From an uncultured Treponema sp. (GTDB lineage Bacteria > Spirochaetota > Spirochaetia > Treponematales > Treponemataceae): 36,800 nucleotides of DNA. Positions within the stretch are counted from its first letter, which is position 1; every line of letters begins with the position of its first letter. This document shows, piece after piece, positions 33,886 to 34,627 of the stretch. Position numbers and translations under genes: made by a program. The notes under the pieces are model-generated. The model ran no database searches, was not told the origin of the DNA, and saw only the letters and a list, made by a program, of their open reading frames with translations. The DNA is taken from assembly GCA_947174385.1 (NCBI GenBank), contig CAMWIU010000006.1:1-36800 (forward strand). The letters are read 5' to 3'.

Positions 33886-34627
33886 ATGATAAAACAATTT
33901 TGTATATTTATTTTGGCTATGCCGCTGCTTTTTCTTTCATGCGACATTGTTGATGGGGGGGGGTGGCCCTTCTTCATCTTCAGGAAAAACAGAATTGCAA
34001 AAAACCGGCACGGTAACATTTTACACCACGTATAATGAGGCTTCCGTCGCATATTACACGCCCGAACTTGAAAGCGGTTGGTACAAATGCGCGGTTTCGG
34101 AAAACAAGCTCGGCGAATTTCCGCCGCAGTCTGCCGTAAAAATTACGCACAACAACAAAACGATTTATGTGCTTGTCACGGATTTATGTCCGAACGATGG
34201 AAATTCGCATTGGACAAGCAATTCGAATTATTTTTTTGATTTGGCAGAAAATGCTTTTGCGGCGTTGGAAAATAAAGACAAAGGGCATATCGATGTTTCG
34301 ATACAACGCATTGCATATGAGACGAAACGGAACATCAAGTTTGCCGTGAAGGACGGCTCAAATCAAAACTGGCTTGCGGGGCGGTTTTACAATATGCGCT
34401 ATCCGCTTGCAAAAGTCGAATACTCACAAGACGGAATCAATTTCAAAGAAATGGAAAAACTTGACGGCAATAAAAATAATTGGTGGAAGATTCAATCTGG
34501 TAAAAATTTGATGTCAAACTTAACATTCCGATTGATTGACGTTTATGGCAATACGATTACGTGTACCGCAATCAGCAAATTATCCGTTGGCGGAACATAC
34601 GACCTCGGCGCGAATTTTAATTATTAA
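33886..34627 (+). pseudogene. Expansin lipoprotein, phase-variable, OFF as written
   Basis: ATG 33886 starts MIKQFCIFILAMPLLFLSC, a lipoprotein signal, then meets G9 at 33955. With nine Gs the frame ends at 34035 after 49 residues. With eight Gs it continues GGGGPSSSSGKTELQ into the ORF at 33947. That part is a two-domain expansin: a double-psi beta-barrel (GTVTFYTTYNEASVAYY, VLVTDLCP with the catalytic-type Asp, FFDLAENAFAAL) and a CBM63-like domain (NIKFAVKDGSNQNWLAGRF, RYPLAKVEY, WWKIQSG). Expansins loosen cellulose networks without hydrolysis. Possible promoter TTGCTT-N16-TATAAT (33852-33879) would give an almost leaderless mRNA. Confidence 0.85.
33955..33963 (+). repeat. G9 tract after expansin lipobox
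   Basis: Nine Gs lie four codons after the lipobox Cys. The signal peptide and expansin body are in different frames across it; loss of one G (or gain of two) joins them. Confidence 0.9.

Follow-up and report, generated by a model that had tools for sequence, protein, structure and literature searches.

A probable phase-variable gene for a lipid-anchored expansin in a Treponema draft genome

The stretch of DNA analysed here (the window, 36,800 nucleotides) is contig C6 of a draft genome of the genus Treponema (G000; 2.30 Mb, 180 contigs, 87% complete). The lineage appears to be 'gut-type', judging from the MAG nature of its relatives and its gene content. Within the window, a lipoprotein signal peptide and an expansin body lie in different reading frames across a run of nine G residues. 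The first-pass annotation had described this arrangement, and re-reading of the sequence confirmed its coordinates:

33886–34035, forward strand: lipoprotein signal-peptide frame, giving a 49-aa OFF product as assembled (sequence)
33928–33942, forward strand: lipobox LFLSC, relaxed spirochaetal type, Cys codon at 33940–33942 (inspection)
33955–33963, forward strand: G9 tract, the putative switch (sequence, Markov simulation)
33953–34627, forward strand: expansin body frame of 224 aa, opening with an ATG that overlaps the tract and closed by the stop codon 34625–34627 (sequence)

The ATG at 33886 opens the signal peptide MIKQFCIFILAMPLLFLSC, and its frame stops at 34033–34035 after 49 aa. The signal peptide was recognized by inspection alone, from a Lys near the start, a hydrophobic core and LFLSC. 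The lipobox claimed earlier does contain the Cys, but we take LFLSC to satisfy only the relaxed spirochaetal rule. The G9 tract begins four codons past this Cys, and the expansin frame from 33953 to 34627 is uninterrupted over 224 codons. The assembled state is OFF, as G9 leaves the signal peptide and the expansin body in different frames. Since the two frames lie one base apart, a tract of 5, 8 or 11 would bring them into one, and the earlier statement that G8 does so holds. The gene has the layout of a contingency gene, in which an over-long homopolymer near the 5' end sets the reading frame.

The identity of the body was examined with sequence profiles, solved structures and a predicted model. 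Two domains were located:

34118–34300, forward strand: DPBB domain (D1), matched part, with the Asp82 equivalent at 34238–34240 (Pfam, phmmer)
34334–34567, forward strand: Expansin_C/CBM63-like domain (D2), with Asn at 34367–34369 where all six homologues have Trp (Pfam, alignment, homologue model)

Searching the body against Pfam, as the first-pass annotation had proposed, gave a divided result. D1 is present, with a DPBB_1 match of 34.0 bits (E=3.5e-8) over a cut-off of 28.8, but the Expansin_C match of 18.6 bits (E=0.0021) fell under its cut-off of 24.6. D2 was instead recognized from phmmer alignments that cover it and from the homologue model, which aligned over both domains. A phmmer search of the PDB returned expansins only, including those of Xanthomonas (3e-11) and B. 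subtilis (YoaJ, 3.6e-10). The NCBIfam model EXLX1 (NF041144) scored 78.9 bits with the G000 protein and 87.2 bits with that of its relative G088, without reaching the cut-off of 100. The in-frame homologue from G088 was modelled with AlphaFold on a seven-row alignment (mean pLDDT 68, low confidence in the signal peptide). In Foldseek, ranks 1 to 12 were all fungal, bacterial and plant expansins, including the related group-1 grass allergen, with E values from 3e-14 to 4e-10. The CBM63/Expansin_C half is thus seen more clearly in structure than in Pfam. Judged by its profile, PDB and Foldseek matches, the protein is a divergent expansin outside the NF041144 subfamily, which bears out the identity first assigned to it.

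The residues that matter in BsEXLX1 include Asp82, Tyr73 and W125/W126 (PMC5072189). The Asp82 equivalent aligned with the BsEXLX1 DLSPNAF motif and was invariant across all homologues. The Tyr73 position was occupied by Cys in every homologue covering it. W126 was kept throughout, whereas W125 was replaced by Asn in G000 alone, giving N-W in place of the WW of the other six. The Y157 region holds a Trp, in an uncertain part of the alignment. The product is putatively a surface-exposed protein that loosens plant cell walls.

Upstream of the gene we noted a promoter element, and on both sides of it a direct repeat:

33871–33879, forward strand: extended -10 element TGATATAAT, ending 6 nt before the ATG, identical in G088 (by eye)
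33824–33859, no strand assigned: 36-nt direct repeat, copy 1, 35/36 identical to the 3' end of the adjacent dus gene (repeat comparison)
34700–34735, no strand assigned: 36-nt direct repeat, copy 2, within the dus 3' end (repeat comparison)

Because the -10 element lies only six bases before the ATG, a leaderless transcript is predicted. G088 and G085 likewise have a TATAAT at this distance from the ATG. The promoter scan upstream of the expansin gene gave no strong sigma-70 -35 box. We considered whether the gene occupies a conserved chromosomal locus and rejected this, as G088 alone was syntenic and the other homologues were without these neighbours; three of these had several kb of flank on both sides. 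With the dus-end repeat on both sides and a locus common only to G088, the expansin gene looks as if it had been inserted beside dus, and the 36-nt repeats may be a trace of this event.

Long G tracts are far more frequent in the window than chance would allow. G/C runs of length 5, 6, 7, 8 and 9 numbered 6, 0, 1, 1 and 3, respectively. The four runs of at least 8 compare with about 0.03–0.04 expected under Markov models (orders 2 to 4) fitted to the window minus its long runs, and none of 450 simulated sequences reached this number. The whole genome was similarly rich, with 50 runs of at least 9 against a genus median of 5 and an upper decile of 23 among genomes that lack the expansin. All seven expansin carriers had 27 to 64 such runs (Mann-Whitney P=3.5e-5, an optimistic value because the carriers may be related).

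Protein search revealed expansin homologues in 7 of 196 Treponema genomes, G000 included. No carriers were found outside the genus in samples, rather than a census, of 274 genomes at family level and 393 at phylum level. The closest relative with the gene was the Treponema MAG JAAVAP010000014.1 (G088), also the sole relative recovered by the contig-level genome search. The 5' end was readable in five of the seven carriers; in G021 and G040 the gene ran into contig ends. The five states, with similarity to G000 in brackets where available, were as follows:

G000: G9, OFF, body intact
G088 (85%): G9 in frame, ON, 248-aa lipoprotein
G061 (65%): G8 out of frame, OFF, 45-aa product, body open over 224 codons
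G085 (56%): G8 inside the signal peptide, in frame, ON
G047: without a tract, in frame, ON, intact

A poly-G tract was therefore seen at the 5' end in four of five homologues, with ON and OFF states mixed: across species rather than strains, two were OFF, two ON with a tract and one ON without. The G8 versions that the first-pass annotation suggested seeking in relatives do exist, out of frame in G061 and in frame in G085. It had also named one outcome that would speak against switching, namely a shared out-of-frame length followed by decaying sequence. Instead, relatives differed in frame state, and both OFF bodies (G000 and G061) were stop-free over their full length. The G088 tract starts one base earlier than that of G000, and the bases after it differ. 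The tract of G085 precedes the Cys, whereas the others have theirs downstream. This points to two or more origins of a tract in the 5' end of the gene, that of G085 probably being independent. At the tract densities of these genomes, a rough estimate from approximate tract numbers puts the chance at about 0.2% for any random 120-nt coding start.

The expansin bodies are under overall purifying selection, somewhat relaxed on the G000 branch. The dN/dS between the G000 and G088 bodies ranged from 0.18 (NG86) to 0.26 (YN00); pairwise dS was saturated beyond G000, G088 and G061, and more distant ratios were left out. By parsimony with G061 as outgroup, 20 nonsynonymous and 14 synonymous changes fell on the G000 branch, compared with 10 and 21 on the G088 branch (Fisher P=0.046). 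Even so, the synonymous share on the G000 branch was above the neutral expectation (binomial P from 0.005 to 0.05, according to how transitions were corrected for). The weaker constraint on the OFF lineage could mean that an often silent gene is relaxed, that an exposed protein is diversifying or that decay has begun. G000 and G088 have almost the same promoter and an identical coding sequence as far as the tract, and neighbouring genes had dS of 0.08–0.19 as against 0.47 for the body. Such a sharp change of divergence at the tract suggests a swap of the body by recombination, and such a replacement may complicate the rate arguments.

For context, 46 tracts of at least 8 in G000 were read. They sit in TTGACA – C8/C9 – TATAAT promoters, in lipoprotein signal peptides and in coding genes. 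Three large lipoproteins without a Pfam family have their signal peptide out of frame at a G9 (C1:7051, L009; C2:44139, L013; C3:15132, L015). Candidate phase-variable restriction-modification genes comprise a methylase that we read as type III-kind (N6_N4_Mtase), with poly-G in frame at about aa 40 (C21:21438, L040), an HsdS-like protein containing poly-G (C35:12144, L043) and a poly-G beside an MmeI-like gene (C4:13241, L018). Further tract-bearing genes encode FeoB, a periplasmic binding protein, a TetR regulator and two glycosyltransferases. The methylase, the HsdS-like protein, the glycosyltransferases and the lipoprotein signal peptides are targets of the classical contingency kind. About half of these tracts have a G088 counterpart, mostly 9/9 and some differing by one (8/9, 9/10); the pairing covered G088 tracts of at least 9, and a few pairs may be paralogues. 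At one orthologous site G8 faces G9 beside a 96% identical flank.

A full-length Cas12a gene (TIGR04330, 1324 bits) was found near position 5640 of contig C39 of G000 (L044, L101). A G9 lies between its TTGACA and TATAAT, in a spacer of 19, about 120–150 nt upstream of the ATG. The same promoter G9 was present in three genomes, G000, G088 (L113/L170) and G137 (L125), and in none of 21 other Cas12a loci examined, a few of which came with little upstream DNA or none. If true, phase variation of a CRISPR promoter would be notable. In the window itself, a C8 at 2968–2975 occupies the 19-nt spacer of a TTGACA/TATAAT promoter facing a biosynthetic cluster (3349–12308). From its translations, this cluster encodes a ketoacyl synthase, two SDRs, an acyltransferase, an adenylating enzyme, a formyltransferase and a GNAT protein; it holds one G9 in frame in an SDR gene (4881–4889) and another near the 3' end of the formyltransferase-like gene (11435–11443). 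Five poly-G runs of G000 lie less than 100 bases from contig ends (C2:24, C43:83, C75:17, C15:28226 and C103:7581), as if mixed tract lengths had broken the assembly. The G53 at the end of C103 is surely an artefact.

Taken together, these observations make it probable that the locus is a phase-variable gene for a lipid-anchored bacterial expansin, switched by slipped-strand changes at its poly-G tract. Phase variation is well supported by comparison between species, through the 5'-end poly-G in four of five homologues, the mixed ON and OFF states, the intact bodies and the tract-rich genome. The length of the G tract just past the lipidated Cys joins or parts signal peptide and body. In the proposed mechanism, polymerase slippage at the tract would flip a small fraction of cells per generation from an outer-surface expansin to a 49-aa dead-end peptide, or back. 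An ON cell would carry a cellulose- or wall-binding protein and might use it to attach to plant fibre or to loosen it, and an OFF cell would escape its cost, or its exposure to host antibodies or phages. The expansin gene would be one of dozens under tract control in G000, together with restriction-modification genes, glycosyltransferases, lipoproteins and promoters.

The greater amino-acid change on the G000 branch than on its sister, and the change of a stacking Trp to Asn, count against switching. Both would be expected of a pseudogene in early decay, inactivated by a frameshift fixed in the tract, with its body now drifting. The relaxed branch ratio (20 nonsynonymous to 14 synonymous), the rarity of the gene in the genus (7 of 196) and the unreadable 5' end of G021 agree with such decay. 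However, the body remains open over 224 codons without a second lesion, its synonymous share still exceeds the neutral expectation (P 0.005 to 0.05), and a second OFF species has an intact body while two tract-bearing relatives are ON. We therefore consider decay unlikely.

A draft genome in 180 contigs may also contain errors in tract length, and the true gene could have one length and simply be on. The metagenome-type assembly and the artefactual G53 of C103 fit this explanation. Against it, relatives bear a genuine tract too, and such tracts form a large class with a mode of 9; a separately assembled genome has equal lengths at many orthologous sites. Should the true length be in frame after all, the tract would remain a switch candidate. 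Such an error seems quite improbable here. More doubtful still is translation of the body from the ATG at 33953, or its production through slippage of the ribosome or during transcription, in which case the tract would be a targeting or dosage device and no on/off switch. A tract-fused ATG does stand in the body frame in both OFF genomes, but no Shine-Dalgarno sequence precedes 33953, the transcript is predicted to begin at 33886, the G085 tract sits inside the signal peptide, and no use is known for an expansin in the cytoplasm. We rate slipped-strand switching as likelier than either decay or error.

A broader reading, which we hold tentatively and at somewhat less than even likelihood, places the gene in a genome-wide poly-G contingency programme. 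Fibre engagement would then be switched randomly alongside surface glycans, restriction-modification and the Cas12a promoter, as bet-hedging of plant-fibre attachment by a gut commensal. Phase variation has mostly been studied in pathogens as immune evasion. If the switch is real, a commensal-type treponeme would bet-hedge fibre attachment through a randomly switched wall-binding protein. Population-average gene content would then misstate which cells can bind fibre, and annotation would be throwing away such genes as frameshifted pseudogenes.

The first-pass annotation knew of no described phase-variable expansin, and our search of the open-access literature likewise returned no report, which does not prove absence. 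Nothing relevant on expansins in Treponema or on cellulose-binding lipoproteins was found there either. A survey of rumen expansins makes no mention of spirochaetes (PMC12632131). With bacterial expansins of the EXLX1/YoaJ type (CBM63), the G000 protein shares the DPBB and Expansin_C fold, the Asp82 equivalent and one of the two stacking Trp residues. It differs in being predicted as lipid-anchored where known ones are freely secreted, in its Cys at the Tyr73 position and in the poly-G switch that interrupts its gene. Its identity to solved bacterial expansins is 20–24%.

Homopolymeric tracts have been described as regulatory elements of general use (PMC2831843). Phase variation by poly-G is established in Treponema pallidum, where the tprL tract ranges from 7 to 11 with a mode of 9 and varies within isolates (PMC7864442), as well as in other bacteria. 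The T. pallidum cases (tprE/G/J, tprL and TP0126) resemble the present one in phylum, homopolymer and tract lengths. However, the well-studied ones work via promoters and target outer-membrane antigens, whereas the G000 tract lies in the reading frame of a putative plant-wall protein. Campylobacter, Helicobacter and Neisseria have translational poly-G contingency loci. These share with G000 the 5'-end G tract, the toggling of frame and the many loci per genome, including restriction-modification genes and glycosyltransferases; we know of no expansin or plant-fibre protein among their targets. The type of switch is classical, and to the extent of our literature search its expansin target is new.
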